A stretch of 64,000 nt of DNA. It comes from an uncultured bacterium. Lineage in GTDB: Bacteria; Pseudomonadota; Gammaproteobacteria; Burkholderiales; Burkholderiaceae_E. The position numbers were made by a program, and so were the translations under genes. The stretch spans positions 1-64,000 of the forward strand of contig CAIVPX010000052.1 of the NCBI GenBank assembly GCA_903907905.1. Reading direction: 5' to 3'. The notes beneath the pieces were generated by a model. It ran no database searches. It had not been told where the DNA came from and saw only the letters and a list, made by a program, of their open reading frames with translations. How positions within the stretch are numbered: the stretch's first letter is position 1; each line of letters starts with the position of its first letter. Below, piece by piece: positions 1 to 36,407 of the stretch.

Positions 1-261
1 GGAACCGTATCATCGATGCTCAAGCTACAGGCGAGCCGCTTGCGGCAGTCCATCAGCGAACTCGGCGTCGATGCGCTGGGGCTCGAGGCGCTACGCTGGC
101 ATGGCGATCCTGCCAGCGAGAGCGATCAACTCCTGTCCACCCTGCTCCCCGACTACCTCAACAGCCGCGCCTTCACCATTTTCGGCGGAGCTGCCGAGGT
201 GCAACTTGGCATCATCGCCAAATCGCTCGGTGAGTCACGACCGACGAGCGCTACAAGCTGA
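1..261 (+). CDS. Acyl-CoA dehydrogenase, C-terminal fragment (cut by window edge)
   Basis: The first 261 bases read in frame 1 as the last 86 residues of an acyl-CoA dehydrogenase; the start lies before the window. The tail carries the family's late motif TIFGGAAEVQ followed by helix IIAKSLGE. In characterised relatives this Gly-Gly-x-x-Glu-x-Gln segment lies near the flavin and the end of the protein. Such FAD enzymes introduce the alpha-beta double bond in acyl-CoAs. The stop at 259-261 is followed six bases later by the CoA ligase start, so the genes are probably co-transcribed. The acyl substrate cannot be told from this tail, but the neighbours suggest catabolism of an unusual carboxylic acid rather than housekeeping beta-oxidation. 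Confidence 0.82.
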   Translation, partial: GTVSSMLKLQASRLRQSISELGVDALGLEALRWHGDPASESDQLLSTLLPDYLNSRAFTIFGGAAEVQLGIIAKSLGESRPTSATS

Positions 262-267
262 TCCGGC

Positions 268-1686
268 ATGAATACCATTCCCTACTACTGGCAATCGCTC
301 GACTGGCCGTCACTCATGCGCGACTACCCACCGCCGCCGCACTACGAGCGCAGTCATGGGCAGTTGTCGGCCGATGCGATGCACGCCTTGCAGCAACAAC
401 GGTTTTTGGCCCGTGTCGAGGAAGCCTGGAAGGTTCCGTTTTACCAGCGCCGCTGGCATGCGGCGGGGTTGATGCCCGGCGATATTCGCAGGCTCGAGGA
501 CATCACCCTGATACCCAGTTTCACCAGCGACGACCTCAAGGACGCCATTGCGGACGGGCCGCCTTTCGGCACCCATCACCCGTTCGGGCGCGAAGCGCTT
601 GCCCACCACCCGGTTCGAATCCAGACCAGCGGCGGATCCACGGGTCTCCCAAGGGTCACCCTCTTCAATGCCACCGCCATCGAGGTTCAGGGTATCCAGT
701 CGGCGCGTGCGCTGTATGCGCAGGGAGCGCGGCCGGGTGACGTCATCCAGATCACCTACACATTGGGTCTGCCCAATGCTGGCTGGTGCGCCCACGACGG
801 CATTCACAAGTGGCTGGGGGCATCGCCGCTGGCCACGGGTTCGGGTGCGGTCACGTCCAGTGAACGGCAACTCGAGTACGCGCTCGCCTGGGGCACCGAC
901 TCCTGGTACGCACGTGGCGATTATCTCGCCCGTCTTGCCCAGGTGGCCCACGAAACCGGCTTCGACCTCTCGCGTCTGCGCACGCGCCGGCTTCACTCCT
1001 TCCTGGGAACCGATGAATCCGGACTCATCCGAAAGCAACTCGAGGAGGCCTGGGGCGCGCCGGTCTTCGACAACTACGGCTCGCATGAAATCGGCCATGT
1101 CGCGTTTGACTGCGAGGCACGCGACGGCAAGCACCTGAGCGAGGACACGGTGTACATCGAGTTTTCCGACGTCGATACCGGCGCACCACTCGCCTGGGGC
1201 GAACGCGGCAATCTGGTCGCCACGTCGCTGCACCGGGGCGTGCCTCCCATCATCCGGTACAACCTGCGCGACTGCATGCGCGGCATCGCCCGCGCGCGCT
1301 GTGCCTGTGGGCTTGAGACGCTCAAGCTCTCGACCTTCTTGGGTCGTAGCGATGACATGGTCAAGCTACGAGGCACCAATGTCTACCCGCTGGCATGCCA
1401 GAGCGCGATCGTCCAGGACCCGCGCACCAGCGGCGACTACCTCTGCGTGGCACATTACCGCGGCGAAGGGCTTGCCCGACGCGAGGCCATGACCGTCCGA
1501 ATCGAGCGACGCTCACCCGAGATCGACGCAAAGGCCCTGGAAGATGACATGCGGGACGCGCTACACCGCACGCTGGGCGTCAAGGTCGAGGTCGAGATCG
1601 TCGAGAAGGGCAGTCTCGCCCGCCTCACCGGTCTGGACACTCAGAACAAGGCCAAGCGGCTGCTCGACCTGCGCCGCACCTCATGA
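268..1686 (+). CDS. PaaK-like AMP-forming CoA ligase
   Basis: This 472-residue protein resembles the phenylacetate-CoA ligase branch of the adenylate-forming enzymes, which make acyl-CoA from a carboxylate, ATP and CoA. The phosphate-binding loop is TSGGSTGLPR near residues 120-129. The adenine-binding motif is DNYGSHEIGH near 268-277. The hinge region reads RSDDMVKLRGTNVYP and is followed by a small C-terminal domain. A CxC pair (RCACG) precedes the hinge, as in several PaaK-type ligases. The stop overlaps the start of the next gene, which points to translational coupling. Its place before CoA-transferase-like subunits and after an acyl-CoA dehydrogenase suggests that it activates the carboxylate this cluster degrades. 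The substrate is unknown, and a phenylacetate role is not supported because no paa genes are nearby. Confidence 0.8.
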   Translation: MNTIPYYWQSLDWPSLMRDYPPPPHYERSHGQLSADAMHALQQQRFLARVEEAWKVPFYQRRWHAAGLMPGDIRRLEDITLIPSFTSDDLKDAIADGPPFGTHHPFGREALAHHPVRIQTSGGSTGLPRVTLFNATAIEVQGIQSARALYAQGARPGDVIQITYTLGLPNAGWCAHDGIHKWLGASPLATGSGAVTSSERQLEYALAWGTDSWYARGDYLARLAQVAHETGFDLSRLRTRRLHSFLGTDESGLIRKQLEEAWGAPVFDNYGSHEIGHVAFDCEARDGKHLSEDTVYIEFSDVDTGAPLAWGERGNLVATSLHRGVPPIIRYNLRDCMRGIARARCACGLETLKLSTFLGRSDDMVKLRGTNVYPLACQSAIVQDPRTSGDYLCVAHYRGEGLARREAMTVRIERRSPEIDAKALEDDMRDALHRTLGVKVEVEIVEKGSLARLTGLDTQNKAKRLLDLRRTS

Positions 1687-2516
1687 GAGAACCCATGGAC
1701 AAGACCCTCACACTCAGTGACCTCACACACCTCGCGCGCGAGGCCGAATCGGTCGCCTTCGGCGGGGGCGGGCTCCAACGCAAACCCATGGCCGCTGCCT
1801 GTGCGCTCGCATCGAGCGACATCGAGCCCATGCGGCTGGTCTCGTTTCTGGGCGGACCCGAGACCGATCTGCTGATCGGCGCAGCAAAGGTGCGCCACCT
1901 GAGCTTTGCCTTCGTGGGTTTTGATGCCTATGGTCTGGCGCCCAATTTCCGTCGGGCGCGAGAATCTGGGCAACTGGAGGTGGTGGAGTATTCTGAAGCC
2001 ACGTTATTGACCGCCTTTGACGCTGCGGCCCGCCGCCTACCCTTTCTCCCGACGCGCTTTGCGCTCGGCACTGCGATCACGCGAACTGCCACCAGTCCCT
2101 TTCGTGAATTCGAGTGCCCGGTCAGCGGTGAAACCCTGCTGGCGGTTCCGGCGCTTGCGCCCGGCCTGGCCATCCTCCACGTCAACCTCGCCGACCGTGC
2201 GGGAAACGCGCTCATCCACGGCGATACCTATGGCGATCTGCTCCTCGCCCGAGCCTCGGCCAAGACAGTCCTCACCGCCGAGCGAATCGTTGACGAACTC
2301 CCGCGCCACTCGAAAGACCTCCCCGATTCTGTCGGCCTGCGCTCGACATTCCTGTCGCGCCTCTGGGTCGACGGCGTCGTCGAGTGTCCCGGGGGGGGCG
2401 GTATGACGGCGGTGTTCCCGGAGCGCGCCATTGATCTCGAGGCGGTCCTCAGTTTTCAACGCCAGGCGCTCGACGCTGACTGGCTGGCCCGATTCGCTCG
2501 CGCAGGAGCCCAATGA
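1683..2516 (+). CDS. CoA-transferase-fold subunit A, IpdA-like
   Basis: This 277-residue protein belongs to the glutaconate CoA-transferase subunit A superfamily. Two stretches resemble what I recall of actinobacterial IpdA, a ring-opening hydrolase of steroid catabolism: GGGGLQRKPMA near residues 27-37 and RRLPFLPTRFALGT near 117-130. Residue Glu105, in YSEATLL, lies about where IpdA has its catalytic Glu. The start overlaps the ligase stop, and the stop overlaps the start of subunit B, so the two subunits should be made together as a heteromer. Ordinary glutaconate or 3-oxoadipate CoA-transferase activity remains possible. The IpdA assignment is inference from remembered sequence, whereas membership of the superfamily is clear. 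Confidence 0.78.
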   Translation: MREPMDKTLTLSDLTHLAREAESVAFGGGGLQRKPMAAACALASSDIEPMRLVSFLGGPETDLLIGAAKVRHLSFAFVGFDAYGLAPNFRRARESGQLEVVEYSEATLLTAFDAAARRLPFLPTRFALGTAITRTATSPFREFECPVSGETLLAVPALAPGLAILHVNLADRAGNALIHGDTYGDLLLARASAKTVLTAERIVDELPRHSKDLPDSVGLRSTFLSRLWVDGVVECPGGGGMTAVFPERAIDLEAVLSFQRQALDADWLARFARAGAQ

Positions 2517-3343
2517 TGACCAACGACTGCACCCTCGAGGAGCGGCTGATTGCCCGGATGGCCCGCGAATTCGATGGCGAGTCCATCGGTGTCGGCGCCA
2601 CCATTCTGGGCGATCTGGCCGCCAGGCTCGCCAAAGCGCTTTACGCCCCCGACCTGTTCCTGACCACCGCATCTCGGGCCGCTGCCGATCCCGACGTTCA
2701 TGCCAAGTCGCTCTCCGACGAGTGGGTGCTGTGCGCCACCGCGCGGATGTCGCTCGACTGGGAGCAAATGTTCCAGCTGATTGCTCAAGGCCGATTGCAA
2801 ATTTGGGTGGGCGCCGTGCAGATCGACCAGTATGGCGCCTCGAACATTTCGGTGGTGGGCGATTGGAACCGTCCGACGGTGCAACTGATCGGCGCGAGAG
2901 GCGTTCCCGATGACCTGTGGGGCTGCGAGCACATCTGCTACCACTTGCGCACCCAGACCCGACGCTCTCTCGTTGCCGCAGTGGATTTCGAGTGCGCCTT
3001 CGGTAATCGCGGGGAGCGAACCCGGGTAGGTCGCAAGGCCGCACGGCCTGGACTCGTCGTCACCGACCTGGGCGTGTATGACTTCAATACGCGCGACGGC
3101 CGGATGCAGATCGTGTCGCTGCACCCCGGTGTCGACTTCAATACTGCCCAGGAACGCTGTGGCTTCGAACTGGAGCGGCCTTCCTCGGGCGAGATCCTGG
3201 TGACCCCCGATCCGACTGAGGCGGAACTTCGCTGCATTCGCGAGATCATCGACCCTCGAGGCCTGCGACGGCTTGAGAGTCGTCAGGCCAGCGAGGCAAT
3301 GACCCTCGAACTGTGGCGCGAAGACCTGCCCAAGTCCGTCTGA
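2513..3343 (+). CDS. CoA-transferase-fold subunit B, IpdB-like
   Basis: This 276-residue protein is the partner subunit, starting four bases before the end of subunit A. Segments GAVQIDQYGASNIS, MQIVSLHPGV and IIDPRGLRRLE fit the subunit B family, and the last two resemble IpdB of the steroid C/D-ring pathway. In that enzyme, A and B form a heterotetramer that hydrolyses a cyclic dione-CoA ring instead of transferring CoA. The first two codons are both ATG; either could serve as start. The gene is followed after 36 bases by a Bug receptor with its own strong ribosome binding site. Substrate and hydrolase-versus-transferase activity cannot be settled from sequence reading alone. Confidence 0.78.
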   Translation: MMTNDCTLEERLIARMAREFDGESIGVGATILGDLAARLAKALYAPDLFLTTASRAAADPDVHAKSLSDEWVLCATARMSLDWEQMFQLIAQGRLQIWVGAVQIDQYGASNISVVGDWNRPTVQLIGARGVPDDLWGCEHICYHLRTQTRRSLVAAVDFECAFGNRGERTRVGRKAARPGLVVTDLGVYDFNTRDGRMQIVSLHPGVDFNTAQERCGFELERPSSGEILVTPDPTEAELRCIREIIDPRGLRRLESRQASEAMTLELWREDLPKSV

Positions 3344-3379
3344 CCTGTTTGGCCAATTCATCCATGAAGGAGTCTTGAT

Positions 3380-4378
3380 ATGGCACGGTTGTTCGCGCGC
3401 TCGATCGAATCCCTGTTCTGTTCTGCGGCCCTGTTGGCCTTAGGGCTCATGCTTTCGCCAGACAGCCACGCGCAGCCGGCTCAATGGCCTGCCCGACCGG
3501 TCCGCATCGTGGTGCCCTTTCCACCAGGCGGTACCGCTGATATCGCCGCGCGGGCCATCGGCGAGGAGATGTCACGATCCATCGGCGAACCGGTGGTGGT
3601 GGAGAACAAGCCAGGCGCCAACACCAACATCGGATCGGCCATCGTCGCACGCGCGCCCGGTGACGGTCACACACTCCTGATGGCCAGCACCTCCGTCGCC
3701 ACCAACCCAAGTCTCTACAAGTCGCTCGACTACGACACCGCACGCGACCTGGTGGGCGTTCATCAGGTCATCGAAGTGCCGCTAGTCATGGCTATGTTCC
3801 CCGCCTCCGCCGGCCGTGACATCAGCGACCTGATTCGAAGGGTCAAGGCATCTGGCAAGCCCCTGAACTGCGGTTCTAGCGGTAACGGTTCACTGGCCCA
3901 CCTTTCCTGTGTCCTGCTCAAGAACCGGACCGGCATGGACGTCCAGCATGTGCCCTATAAAGGCGGGGCACCCATGATTGCCGACCTCATCGGCGGTCAG
4001 GTGGATGTCGCCTTTGACACGCCCGCGGCCGTGCTGCCGAATACGCAGGCGGGACGCTTGCGCGCGCTCGCCACTACCGGCTCTGCGCGAATCGACTCGT
4101 TCTCCGAGACACCGACGATGCTGGAATCCGGGGTGAGCGGATTCGAGGTCGTCTGGTGGGCTGGCCTGCTGGCACCCTCCAGCACGCCAGCACCCTTGAT
4201 CGCCCGCCTGCATGCCGAGATCAGCAAAGCACTTCACTCGCCTCAGGTGGTCGCGCGTTTCGCCAAGCTTGGGATCGTGGCATCCCGCGCCAGTCAGGCT
4301 GACTTTGCGGCGCGTATCCGAGCCGACATCGAGACCTACTCGTCCGTAGTTCGCAGCGCCGGCCTTTCAATCGACTGA
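3380..4378 (+). CDS. Bug-family (TctC) periplasmic solute-binding protein
   Basis: This 332-residue protein starts with a signal peptide: a hydrophobic stretch SAALLALGLML, then a likely cleavage after SHA. The mature start has the Bug signature WPARPVRIVVPFPPGG, followed by TADIAAR. Other family marks are ENKPGANTNIGS, HVPYKGGAPMIADLIGGQVD and the C-terminal SQADFAARIRADIE. Bug proteins bind carboxylates or amides in the periplasm, sometimes for a tripartite tricarboxylate transporter and often without an adjacent permease. No tctA or tctB is visible here. An AAGGAG ribosome binding site precedes the ATG. Placement at the end of the ligase/CoA-transferase genes suggests capture of the substrate that the cluster degrades. 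Confidence 0.9.
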   Translation: MARLFARSIESLFCSAALLALGLMLSPDSHAQPAQWPARPVRIVVPFPPGGTADIAARAIGEEMSRSIGEPVVVENKPGANTNIGSAIVARAPGDGHTLLMASTSVATNPSLYKSLDYDTARDLVGVHQVIEVPLVMAMFPASAGRDISDLIRRVKASGKPLNCGSSGNGSLAHLSCVLLKNRTGMDVQHVPYKGGAPMIADLIGGQVDVAFDTPAAVLPNTQAGRLRALATTGSARIDSFSETPTMLESGVSGFEVVWWAGLLAPSSTPAPLIARLHAEISKALHSPQVVARFAKLGIVASRASQADFAARIRADIETYSSVVRSAGLSID

Positions 4379-4383
4379 GCAAG

Positions 4384-4406
4384 CGCGAGCCAGTCAGCGG
4401 CTCGCG
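4384..4406. terminator. Inverted repeat between converging genes
   Basis: A perfect 8-bp stem (CGCGAGCC / GGCTCGCG) with a 7-base loop spans the 3' ends of the Bug receptor (+) and the TDT transporter (-), which converge here. No T-run follows on either strand, so it is not a textbook intrinsic terminator, but its position fits a bidirectional transcript-end hairpin. It overlaps the last codons of the transporter. Confidence 0.4.
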
Positions 4407-5413
4407 GTCACGCTCGTAGCCTGCGGTGGCGGGGCCCCTGCGGGCTCGGGCACGAGCAACTCCCGCCGGAGCAGTCCCCGCAGGGTAAGCACACTCAGCC
4501 CGATGATGACCAGCGTCGCGAGCCCCAGAGCGAGCAGCGAAAATGTCCTCAGGATGGGGTGCTCGACTGCCAGTCGAAGGGTCAGCGCCGCGTAAGCCGC
4601 CAGCGGAAAGGACAGGGCCCACAGGGGCATGCCAAAGCCGCTCCGAATGATCCGGGGTAGCAGCCTCAGCGACGCCGCCAGAAAGCAGGTGGCGATCCCC
4701 AAGGCGCCCAGTGCTACCGACCCCGGCCCCCCCAGATTGAGTACAGCCACCCCGATGACAGCCGCAGGCGCCACCGAAATGAACCAGGTCGCAAGCAAGC
4801 GTTCGGGCAAGGCCTGAGAGGCCGTACGGGTCAGAATCAGTGCCAGCACGACCGGCCATGCAAAGGTGCCGATGCCCATGAAGGCAATTCCCAAGGCGGT
4901 CTGATCAAACGTGGCCGCACCGAGTGGCACCACCACATTGCCCACGATGGGAATGAACACCACGGGCGTCATCGCAGCCCAGTTGAGGCCCTCGCGCAGC
5001 CATCGGTCGATCACCCAGACGGTCACCAGAAACTCGGCCCCCACCGCGCCCAACCAAAGGCCACTGAGCAGCCCGCCGCCCAGCCCGAGGCCCGCCAGCA
5101 GCGTACACAGCAGCATGAGCGAGACGGGACAGGCCGCCAGAAAGGCGTGCCGCACCGGATGGCGCAACTCTTCGAGGAGCGCCGCACGGTGGCGGGCCAA
5201 CCGAAGGACCGACGCCACAAGCACTAATCCGAACGCGATGCACGCCAGGCTGGCGGCGCCATAAGCTGCAAGGCTTGCGGTCTCGCCCAACAGCGGCTGA
5301 GCCCGAAGCCAGGCCAGGCCCAGTCCCGACCATCCCATGACCACCGCGAACCACTGCAGGCCGAGAAAACGAATGCCATGTGCCGGAGCGATGGACGAGC
5401 GGTTCGCTTGCAT
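4394..5413 (-). CDS. TDT / SLAC1-type membrane transporter (TehA-like)
   Basis: The start at 5413 gives 339 residues and is chosen because GGAGG lies 7 bases upstream; an ATG 24 bases earlier lacks that support. About ten hydrophobic helices are visible, for example WFAVVMGWSGLGLAWL near the N-terminus, with the mid-protein segment MTPVVFIPIVGNVVVPLGA. This matches the tellurite-resistance/dicarboxylate (TDT) family that includes TehA, Mae1 and SLAC1 anion channels. The N-terminal F-x-x-V-M-G-x-x-G-L-G-x-x-W pattern is typical. The substrate could be an organic acid or a small anion. An XRE regulator is transcribed divergently from only 23 bases away and is the obvious candidate regulator. 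Confidence 0.82.
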   Translation of the reverse strand: MQANRSSIAPAHGIRFLGLQWFAVVMGWSGLGLAWLRAQPLLGETASLAAYGAASLACIAFGLVLVASVLRLARHRAALLEELRHPVRHAFLAACPVSLMLLCTLLAGLGLGGGLLSGLWLGAVGAEFLVTVWVIDRWLREGLNWAAMTPVVFIPIVGNVVVPLGAATFDQTALGIAFMGIGTFAWPVVLALILTRTASQALPERLLATWFISVAPAAVIGVAVLNLGGPGSVALGALGIATCFLAASLRLLPRIIRSGFGMPLWALSFPLAAYAALTLRLAVEHPILRTFSLLALGLATLVIIGLSVLTLRGLLRRELLVPEPAGAPPPQATSVTASR

Positions 5414-5420
5414 GGTGCTT

Positions 5421-5430
5421 CCTCCAGGAG
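5421..5430. promoter_or_regulatory. Self-complementary ribosome binding site shared by divergent genes
   Basis: The ten bases CCTCCAGGAG read as CTCCTGGAGG on the other strand. AGGAG serves the rightward XRE gene (ATG at 5437) and GGAGG serves the leftward transporter (ATG at 5413). The whole intergenic region is only 23 bp, so both promoters must lie inside the opposite coding sequence. Confidence 0.6.
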
Positions 5431-5436
5431 TGTTCA

Positions 5437-6279
5437 ATGAAAGCCAGCGAGTTGCTGACCACGACCCTCAAACGGACGCTGAAGGCCCAGGGCATGACGT
5501 ATGCAGCGCTTGCCCAGCGCCTCGGTATTTCGGAGGCCACCGTGAAACGCATGTTTGCGCGCGGCAAGTTTGACCTTCAGCGACTTGACCAGGTCGTCGC
5601 CGCGATCGGCTGCGACCTGCACGATCTGCTCAGAATGATTCCGCGCGCTGAGCGATTGCTCGAATCGCTCACCTGGGAGCAAGAGGCCGACATCGTCAAG
5701 GATCCCTGCCTGTTTACCGTGGCCGTCTGCGCCCTTCATCTGCTGAGCGCCGATGAAATGCGCGGCATCTACCGGATCAGCCCGGCCGAGTGCGTGCGTT
5801 GCCTGATGCGACTCGACCGGATCGGCTTTCTCACGGTGCTGGCCAATGACACCTACCGTCTGCGGATTGCACGGACCTTTCGCTGGTTGCCCGATGGCCC
5901 GATTCTTCGATGCTTCAGGGCACAAGCGGAGGAGTTTCTCGATCACGACTTCGCGGGGCCGGGCGAGTGCGTGGGCGTGGTGAACGTGCGCCTGTCCAAC
6001 GAACACCGGCTCGCGCTGCTGGAGCGCGCCCGCCAACTGGCCAGCGAATACTCGGATGTGCACAACCAGGATGCGTCGCTGCCCTTGGCCCGGCGCCATC
6101 CGATGAGTCTGCTCATTGCCGTACGAAGCTGGGAGCCACAATTCATGAGATCGCTGCGGCGCCTGGACGACGCAAGCCTGGCACGTTGGCTCAAATCGAA
6201 CGCCGCCGGCAACCCACCGACGCACCCATCTGCCCGCCCGGGCAAGCCGCAGCGGGCGACCGCGCAAGCCGGGCGCTGA
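5437..6279 (+). CDS. XRE-family helix-turn-helix transcriptional regulator
   Basis: Starting at 5437, with AGGAG six bases upstream, this gives 280 residues. Residues 5-60 form an XRE/Cro HTH: KAQGMTYAALAQRLGIS, then EATVKRMFARGKFDLQRL. The pattern YAALAQRLGISEATVKRMF is a clear helix-turn-helix with recognition helix EATVKRM. The remainder, about 220 residues, is soluble. Segment ECVRCLMRLDRIGFL looks like a second small helical unit, but I recognise no ligand domain. Transcription diverges from the TDT transporter with a 23-bp gap, so it probably controls that gene and itself. The last 30 residues are rich in Pro, Arg and Ala and look disordered. Confidence 0.85.
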   Translation: MKASELLTTTLKRTLKAQGMTYAALAQRLGISEATVKRMFARGKFDLQRLDQVVAAIGCDLHDLLRMIPRAERLLESLTWEQEADIVKDPCLFTVAVCALHLLSADEMRGIYRISPAECVRCLMRLDRIGFLTVLANDTYRLRIARTFRWLPDGPILRCFRAQAEEFLDHDFAGPGECVGVVNVRLSNEHRLALLERARQLASEYSDVHNQDASLPLARRHPMSLLIAVRSWEPQFMRSLRRLDDASLARWLKSNAAGNPPTHPSARPGKPQRATAQAGR

Positions 6280-35606: not shown

Positions 35607-36407
35607 ATGAGCTACCTGCTCGTCGATATTGGCAACACCTTTCTCAAGTGGGGCGTCTACTCGCCCGCCAAGGCCTCTCCTGAGCCGGCTCAGGCTCGGG
35701 CCCGCGAATTCGGGCGGGTGCTGCTGGACGAAATTCCCATGGTCATGGCGGAGTGGCGTCGGCTTCCGGTTCCCGAACGGGTCGTCATCGCGAGCGTAGC
35801 CGGGACGCGGGTGGCCAACCCGGTGCTGCGTGCCCTCGAAGTATGGCCAGACGCTCCGGAGCCCCACTGGATCAGTTCGCGCGCCGAACAGTGCGGTATT
35901 ACCAATGGCTACCTCAACCCGGCCGCGCTCGGCTGCGACCGCTGGGCCGCGCTGATTGGCGCACGCTCCCTGATCGGCGAGCGCGCCGCACTGGTCGTGG
36001 TCTGCGGCACCGCCACCACCCTCGACATGCTGACCACCGACGGCCGCTTCGTGGGTGGCGGGATCATGCCTGGGCTAGGGCTCATGCAGCGCGCGCTTCA
36101 CCAGAACACCGCAACGCTGCCTGACGCGCCCGGTGACTACGTCGACTTTCCCCGGCAAACGGTGGACGCGATCGCAACGGGCTGTGCGCACGCGCAGGCG
36201 GGTGCTGTCGAGCGGGTATTTTTTCTGCACAAGCGCAACTTCCCCGACCTGCGGTGCATTCTCTCGGGTGGCGCAGCCCGGTCGCTCGGACCGAGGCTCA
36301 CCATTGAGTTCACCTATGTTGAAAATCTCGTGCTCGAGGGTCTGTACCAGATTGCCGCCTCACTGGGCCCGGGTGGCACGCCCGTACGTTCCGGTTCGAG
36401 TGACTGA
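35607..36407 (+). CDS. coaX: Type III pantothenate kinase
   Basis: This 266-residue enzyme has the actin-like fold motifs of CoaX. The phosphate-1 loop is VDIGNTFLKWG, the pantothenate-contact segment is LGCDRWAALIGA, and phosphate-2 is VVCGTATTLDML followed by FVGGGIMPGLGLM. The C-terminal CILSGGAARSLGP is the adenosine motif. It phosphorylates pantothenate in CoA synthesis. Betaproteobacteria often use CoaX in place of CoaA. The gene is not coupled to birA in this window, being preceded by 96 noncoding bases. Confidence 0.94.
   Translation: MSYLLVDIGNTFLKWGVYSPAKASPEPAQARAREFGRVLLDEIPMVMAEWRRLPVPERVVIASVAGTRVANPVLRALEVWPDAPEPHWISSRAEQCGITNGYLNPAALGCDRWAALIGARSLIGERAALVVVCGTATTLDMLTTDGRFVGGGIMPGLGLMQRALHQNTATLPDAPGDYVDFPRQTVDAIATGCAHAQAGAVERVFFLHKRNFPDLRCILSGGAARSLGPRLTIEFTYVENLVLEGLYQIAASLGPGGTPVRSGSSD

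Follow-up and report, generated by a model that had tools for sequence, protein, structure and literature searches.

A CoA-transferase-fold pair related to IpdAB in a ligase cassette of an uncultured member of the Burkholderiaceae_E

What might relatives of IpdAB (ScdL1L2), the COCHEA-CoA hydrolase of steroid C-ring cleavage, be doing beside a CoA ligase and an uptake receptor? The question is raised by two adjacent genes, A and B, near the left end of the DNA analysed here, positions 1 to 64,000 of contig CAIVPX010000052.1 (assembly GCA_903907905.1) from an uncultured member of the Burkholderiaceae_E; this whole stretch of 64,000 nucleotides is referred to as the window. It starts at the left end of its contig (C52) in a draft genome of 4.43 Mb and 190 contigs (G000). 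A preliminary description had seen in A and B two CoA-transferase-fold subunits akin to IpdA and IpdB, and both the best solved relatives and the trees described below bear this out. We judge it fairly likely that the pair is a heteromeric acyl-CoA hydrolase or lyase of the IpdAB type, from a subfamily that is sister to IpdAB and belongs to a non-steroid catabolic cassette, and it probably opens the ring of another, non-steroid cyclic acid. The genes and codons concerned are:

1–261, forward strand: acyl-CoA dehydrogenase, C-terminal 86 residues, probably of the large subunit (PimC-like), truncated at the edge of the contig (PF00441, E 2.9e-7)
268–1686, forward strand: PaaK-like acyl-CoA ligase (PF14535, E 1e-12)
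1683–2516, forward strand: subunit A, IpdA-like class I CoA-transferase-fold protein (PF01144, E 1.3e-15; IpdA 6co6, E 9.4e-38)
1995–1997, forward strand: Glu105 codon of A, in the column of IpdA Glu105, motif VEYSEA (by alignment)
2513–3343, forward strand: subunit B, IpdB-like class I CoA-transferase-fold protein (PF01144, E 9.2e-7; IpdB 6con_B, E 9.3e-27)
2669–2671, forward strand: Ala53 codon of B, in the column of the covalent Glu54 of glutaconate CoA-transferase (by alignment)
3380–4378, forward strand: Bug/TctC periplasmic solute-binding receptor (PF03401, E 9.5e-58)

Kinship of the A/B pair

The genes for the ligase, A, B and the receptor are all intact and, with the dehydrogenase fragment, make up five rightward frames; 4-base ATGA overlaps join the ligase to A (1683–1686) and A to B (2513–2516). 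IpdA and IpdB are the best solved relatives of the two subunits, at the E values listed above. AibAB and glutaconate CoA-transferase (GCT) are weaker, at about 1e-15 for A and 1e-15 to 8e-13 for B.

A scan of genome contigs with subunit A as query returned eight loci, comprising five orthologues and three distant relatives (L047–L049). The orthologues were found in an Alphaproteobacteria metagenome-assembled genome (MAG; L042), a Hyphomicrobiales MAG (L043), Bosea sp. WAO (L044), a betaproteobacterial MAG (L045, in which A is incomplete) and a Rhodoferax MAG (L046), and they are 58–64% identical to the window in A and 59–70% in B. Subunit B was used as query in four partly overlapping samples. 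The window type occurred in G000 only within the family (74 genomes; four others match at E ≤ 1e-20, 30–32% identical), the order (399 genomes; three others at E ≤ 1e-24, at most 37%) and the phylum (398 genomes; 27 others at E ≤ 1e-22, at most 36%). At E ≤ 1e-35 G000 was likewise alone among the 369 genomes of the class sample. A plasmid search returned 216 records, all below 60% identity and at most 37.6% among the 40 matches listed. The cassette is small and patchily distributed among bacteria.

Phylogenies were built from 53 concatenated A+B rows and from each subunit separately. References were chosen by their neighbouring genes. Steroid IpdAB was represented by one pair from Sphingobium, which adjoins hsaC and has echA20 nearby, and one from Tsukamurella, which adjoins a nitronate-monooxygenase gene and has a steroid thiolase nearby; 3-oxoadipate CoA-transferases were represented by two pairs accompanied by pca genes (L084 and L088, the two annotated pca loci among the 18 PcaIJ-clade rows). 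All trees are without the near-duplicates L022, L023, L025 and L036, second copies of the same loci, the short pieces L049 and L060, L059 (B only) and the other transferases of G000 (L001–L005). L048, which has no full B, is absent from the concatenated tree, and the separate trees additionally omit L034, L085, L086, L013 and AibAB, all long branches.

In the concatenated tree the window type forms a clade of six rows (support 100/100), the sister of which is an 18-row clade with all labelled steroid pairs (100/99). Jointly they make a clade of 24 rows (100/99), with PcaIJ, GCT and AibAB outside, the last on a long branch (3.21). Trees of A and of B alone, both built without AibAB, agree (95 and 98 in the Shimodaira–Hasegawa-like approximate likelihood ratio test). 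Within the steroid clade, four rows are solved or annotated IpdAB (6co6, 6con, L080, L089), seven have IpdC nearby, and the remaining seven (L014, L047, L056, L081, L082, L083, L087) were placed without an IpdC check; L081 was labelled steroid in the concatenated tree by resemblance, its record carrying no gene annotation. Membership in IpdAB proper is rejected, as the window type is sister to the steroid clade, not within it, and differs from it in fixed residues.

The same trees bear on the possibility that A and B are an ordinary class I CoA-transferase of the GCT or PcaIJ/CatIJ type. Both subunits belong to Pfam PF01144, fold and two-subunit layout are shared with glutaconate CoA-transferase (1poi) and PcaIJ/CatIJ, and PcaJ-type subunits score nearly like IpdB in plain tblastn. 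The pair nevertheless lies outside the PcaIJ/GCT group in all three trees, and its active-site columns, described next, point the same way.

Active-site columns, fixed residues and steroid markers

The Glu105 column of A holds Glu in all six window-type rows and all 18 steroid-clade rows, as opposed to His in 18 of 18 PcaIJ-clade rows, Gln in GctA and Gly in AibA. In the window this residue, to which the preliminary description had drawn attention, aligns with the one that is Ala in entry 6coj, titled IpdAB E105A; its number follows from the choice of start codon (residue 5 is a second Met), whereas its alignment is independent of that choice. We take Glu105 to be the catalytic residue of IpdA, for which the analysis itself offers the title of the E105A entry.

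In its covalent-Glu column, B has Ala, Gly or Gln in 6/6 window-type rows, with Glu in 0/6, and Gly or Ser in all 18 rows of the steroid clade, whereas GctB and the 18 PcaIJ-clade rows all have Glu. AibAB is also without this residue. In PMC5380842, Gly57 of IpdB sits at the transferase covalent Glu54 position, and IpdAB is described as having no CoA-transferase activity on the short-chain pairs tested. A grouping with covalent-Glu transferases, named beforehand as the outcome that would speak against IpdAB kinship, was looked for and is not what the trees and the column show. An ordinary CoA-transferase is rejected on these two grounds and is, as an account of the pair, hardly credible.

The segments that had been named as shared with IpdA and IpdB are present, GLQRKPMA and RRLPFLPTR in A and MQIVSLHPGV and IDPRGLRRLE in B, but RKP and LPFLP also occur in GctA, so these segments are not specific alone; stronger evidence comes from the Glu105 column, the phylogenies and the genes that accompany the pair. 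Positions invariant or nearly so in both the window-type and steroid clades number 35 in A and 33 in B, and 14 positions in A and 10 in B are fixed differently between them. Among the latter, from steroid clade to window type, are W29 to G, R32 to Q, Y56 to L and D104 to S in A, and D52 to T and E54 to S in B; each of the steroid-fixed residues so replaced has at most one exception within the steroid clade. Some of these positions adjoin the two columns (Ser104 for Asp in A; Thr52 and Ser54 for Asp and Glu in B). The IpdAB motif GGWGSRRKPM in A is accordingly GGGG(L/I)QRKPM in the window type, and TD(G/S)E in B (Glu in 17 of 18 steroid-clade rows) is TTxS or MTxS. Thus the pair is like IpdAB (6co6, 6co9, 6coj, 6con) in its two-gene A-B layout, in the fold of A, in Glu105 and in the missing covalent Glu, and unlike it in forming a sister clade on a long branch.

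An AlphaFold model of A (predicted local distance difference test score, pLDDT, 89.7) was matched best in VIA-align by IpdA 6co6_A (Z 31.9, root-mean-square deviation 2.2, 266 aligned), followed by AibA (29.9) and GctA (28.9), and Foldseek left IpdA (E 6.3e-22) and AibA (E 1.4e-21) nearly tied. The model of B is poor (pLDDT 43.9), and no conclusion rests on it. A and B could conceivably be a non-transferase of another class that acts on, for instance, an open-chain dicarboxylyl-CoA as a decarboxylase or hydratase. The parallel would be the decarboxylase AibA/AibB (5mzw), which is the second-best fold family for A and likewise has a class I CoA-transferase fold without the covalent Glu. The cassette dehydrogenases, moreover, resemble pimeloyl-CoA dehydrogenase, which, going by the enzyme name, acts on an open chain. 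We regard this alternative as rather unlikely: AibA has Gly, not Glu, in the 105 column, AibAB falls outside the clade of window type and IpdAB, albeit on its long branch, and the PRK08290 hydratase discussed below is common to the cassettes and the steroid IpdAB loci.

Steroid genes were sought with IpdC (E ≤ 1e-20) and HsaC (E ≤ 1e-10) from the Sphingobium cluster as queries. Neither had a match in the whole G000 assembly, a result for these two markers only, other steroid genes not having been searched singly. All six steroid-clade control genomes gave matches to both, and an IpdC homologue of 48–54% identity lies about 1 kb from B in 7/7 steroid-clade loci tested (those of the six control genomes and the second pair of the betaproteobacterial MAG G828). 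In the remaining genomes with a window-type pair, IpdC-like matches reached at most 36% in G825 and G827, G826 had no IpdC match, and HsaC matched in none of these three. The second pair of G828, which is of the steroid type, is accompanied by its own IpdC, but the genome gave no HsaC match, and G829 has weaker homologues elsewhere (IpdC-like 40%, HsaC-like 41%). The earlier remark that no steroid genes were in view therefore holds, for the two markers, across the assembly, and G000 seems to be without the steroid pathway.

It is in this light that a third account has to be weighed, in which A and B would be IpdAB in function and open COCHEA-CoA, or a close steroid remnant, imported as the free acid from steroid-degrading neighbours. 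IpdAB is indeed the closest family, the cassette is like the end of the steroid pathway with a ligase and a receptor added, and a reference title in PMC6678751 has a secodioic acid as a metabolite of C. testosteroni, which we read as free COCHEA. The separate clade, the replacement of steroid-fixed residues and the lack of IpdC and HsaC matches in G000 stand against it, and COCHEA-CoA itself is an unlikely substrate because the sister clade has 14 (A) and 10 (B) positions fixed differently. We consider this account distinctly improbable.

Several further pairs were observed. The single bin G828 holds a window-type pair on contig C396 together with the steroid-type pair, with IpdC and a PRK08290 hydratase, on C557. 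Pairs L009, L010 and L011 (G066, G065 and G070, of the window genome's family code) have Glu at the 105 column of A (ECDEGMYYA), a B without the covalent Glu (MLAHTRT) and an adjoining acyl-CoA dehydrogenase match in 3/3 loci, and are placed just outside the clade of window type and IpdAB. They form a further type of pair and may belong to yet another non-transferase family. L012 (G068) and L037 (G644) lack both Glu105 and the covalent Glu, with Gly in both columns. The A-like subunit of L048, from a Candidatus Thermoplasmatota archaeon MAG, is 31% identical, with Asn in the Glu105 column and an acyl-CoA dehydrogenase match near.

The larger operon and its hydratase

Orthologues of the ligase, 61–72% identical, lie directly upstream of A in all four loci that extend that far. 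The closest solved relative, from a profile of five orthologues, is phenylacetate-CoA ligase 4r1l (E 2.5e-57); against the TIGR02155 PaaK profile the window protein scores 175 bits, the cut-off of 646 not being reached, and by this measure it is PaaK-like, not PaaK. Around the ligase-A-B core, G825, Bosea and Rhodoferax also have, with variants, a PRK08290 enoyl-CoA hydratase and two acyl-CoA dehydrogenase subunits. Thiolase genes are present in the cassettes of L043, Bosea and G825, and an IclR regulator lies within a few kb in Bosea, G825 and Rhodoferax. L045 and L046 have no thiolase match, and L043 has no dehydrogenase match on its 14-kb contig; L042 stops inside the cassette, L045 starts inside A, and the B of G825 is on another contig. 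The hydratase and two adjacent dehydrogenase genes recall IpdAB clusters, but in place of IpdC or HsaC the pair has a PaaK-like ligase and its own uptake genes.

The Bug receptor has Bug27 as its closest solved relative (E 2.1e-60), with terephthalate-binding proteins and BugD among the next. Its presence is not conserved: downstream of the pair, L043–L046 have ABC-type transporter genes (solute-binding, ATPase and permease), and in G825 these were seen by eye in translations only. The flanking module of the preliminary description is thus coherent as to ligase, dehydrogenase and receptor, but only the last 86 residues of the dehydrogenase are in the window and the Bug receptor is not kept in relatives.

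Cassette dehydrogenases have pimC, and pimD or IpdE2, as best NCBIfam profiles, and share with the heteromeric PimC/PimD and IpdE1/IpdE2 (which we take to be FadE31/FadE32) the layout of two adjacent subunits. Scores are far under the cut-offs, at 228–246 of 624 bits for pimC, 198 of 653 for pimD (G000) and 113–134 of 450 for IpdE2; the last cut-off is not decisive because the small subunit of the Sphingobium steroid cluster itself reaches only 155. The large subunit of G825 has Tcur3483 and 4x28 as solved neighbours.

The upstream half of the G000 operon was located on another contig, C152, next to its right end at base 35808. It comprises a hydratase (G000:C152:32988-33752) 64% identical to that of the relatives, a dehydrogenase small subunit at 26–27% identity and the first 241 residues of a large subunit at 44–49% (N-terminal piece, L095:19085-19807). 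The window piece at 1–261 aligns with residues 316–388 of the large subunit of the Rhodoferax operon (37%), and the gap between the contigs would be about 77 codons of this gene. C152 and C52 were kept separate, the link between them being supported by synteny. To the right, the cassette is followed in the window by:

4394–5437, reverse strand: SLAC1-family anion channel gene, within the insertion described below (PF03595, E 3.1e-38)
5440–6279, forward strand: helix-turn-helix (HTH) gene, right border of the insertion and next after moeA in all four congeners (57–58% identical orthologues, L107–L110)

On C152 moeA comes before the hydratase. In 4/4 congeners moeA is followed, about 200 bases on, by the HTH gene and then a cytochrome c gene, after which come, where the stretch reaches, moxR-, von-Willebrand- and htpG-type genes. 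Because the flanks are adjacent in all four congeners, the cassette with the SLAC1-family gene is, relative to them, an insertion between moeA and the HTH gene. The insert shows no contrast in G+C (0.64–0.65, flanks 0.63–0.65), and the SLAC1-family gene has no match in the four congener stretches with the empty site. In the cassette it could carry the acid over the membrane or be a passenger.

The C152 hydratase scores 337 bits on NCBIfam PRK08290, above the cut-off of 280, which is also exceeded in the other cassettes and in the Sphingobium steroid cluster. A search of 18 genomes (G826 outside it) and 14 named control genomes gave one match above cut-off in each of 11 of the 18, always alongside an IpdAB-type pair. 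At seven steroid-clade loci the gene lies 50–115 bases from B; in G829 (4.0 kb away) and G827 (4.6 kb away) it shares the operon of the pair, and in G825 and G000 it is on contigs carrying cassette genes; the match of G828 goes with its steroid-type pair. No match above cut-off was found in the seven genomes without an IpdAB-type pair (four congeners and three with only PcaIJ-type among the rows) or in the 14 controls.

In PMC13101464, scdN is the hydratase gene after scdL1L2 in C. testosteroni TA441, with a role in the beta-oxidation following C-ring cleavage. The ScdN row of a review table lists R. jostii RHA1_RS22405 (PMC8399759), which PMC5380842 proposes to take the hydroxyl group off 7beta-OH HIP. 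The genes scdM1M2, equated by gene order, appear to be ORF21/22, listed beside FadE31/FadE32. The cassette resembles the late steroid C/D-ring block (scdL1L2, scdN, scdM1M2, thiolase) without the earlier steps.

A candidate pathway for a cyclic acid

In the scheme that we favour, with A and B as a ring hydrolase or lyase, the Bug receptor, or the ABC importer in relatives, would bring in a small cyclic carboxylic acid, and the PaaK-like ligase would convert it into the CoA thioester. The A/B enzyme, with Glu105 of A catalytic as in IpdA, would then break a ring C-C bond of the cyclic oxo- or enoyl-CoA, in a reaction modelled on the retro-aldol hydrolysis proposed for IpdAB on COCHEA-CoA; PMC6678751 terms the IpdAB ring opening retro-Claisen. 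The acyl-CoA dehydrogenase pair, hydratase and thiolase would thereafter degrade the opened chain by beta-oxidation. The substrate is predicted to enter at the monocyclic stage because the gene set is like the end of the steroid pathway without its earlier steps. By the same analogy it would be a monocyclic oxo-acid, or an acid made into one by the dehydrogenase, for instance 6-oxocyclohex-1-ene-1-carboxylate or a 2-oxocycloalkane-carboxylate.

A number of points weigh against this scheme. With the steroid-fixed residues changed, even the reaction class could differ; AibAB, a decarboxylase that also does without the covalent Glu, matches the modelled fold almost as well as IpdA. The window copy has no thiolase or 3-hydroxyacyl-CoA dehydrogenase alongside: the thiolase query from L043 found no match within the 64-kb window, and no 3-hydroxyacyl-CoA dehydrogenase was seen among the cassette genes scanned. 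The small dehydrogenase subunits may vary in role because they are little conserved among cassettes (26–44%). The window-type contig of G828 (9.5 kb) is without a PRK08290 match above cut-off, and the hydratase may have another role, the ScdN type having been equated by gene position and RHA1_RS22405 having been proposed for another reaction.

Ring opening by IpdAB, an enzyme with a CoA-transferase fold, was reportedly unexpected. A sister family that keeps Glu105, has a different set of fixed residues and comes with a self-contained operon gives direct access to three questions: the origin of C-C hydrolysis in a transferase fold, the residues that determine the substrate, and a possible descent of the last part of steroid degradation from an older module. 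More broadly, and as a tentative proposal to which we give somewhat less than even chances, the cassettes may represent a portable ring-cleavage pathway. In it, a free monocyclic oxo-acid would be imported, activated by a ligase dedicated to it and cleaved by ring hydrolases that have the CoA-transferase fold but make up a second family, distinct from the steroid one; this hydrolase and the hydratase would derive from an ancestral block shared with the end of the steroid pathway. If true, the IpdAB block would be an older general ring-opening unit of which the steroid pathway is one user. A catabolic route for a cyclic acid would also be pointed to behind genes that Pfam names only 'CoA transferase'. 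Among the titles and abstract openings covered in the IpdAB and steroid ring-cleavage literature, none is on a non-steroid IpdAB family; a possibly relevant PNAS 2018 paper on IpdAB is outside that coverage.

Two minor observations concern neighbouring or unlinked genes. Upstream of the Rhodoferax cassette (L062, G829:C17) are benzoate-1,2-dioxygenase-like genes, three Bug receptors and a FAD protein like KstD or 4-oxocyclohexanecarboxylate dehydrogenase, the matches of this protein and of the dioxygenase being below NCBIfam cut-offs. Such dioxygenase and KstD-like neighbours and the Bug trio were not seen among the neighbour genes scanned at other loci, in a scan that was not exhaustive; at the Rhodoferax locus they may hint at a cyclohexane- or aromatic-acid substrate. 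Elsewhere in G000, at G000:C74:6253-7302, an acyl-CoA dehydrogenase match has a TGA inside the matched stretch and could be a pseudogene, a frame problem or an assembly error.

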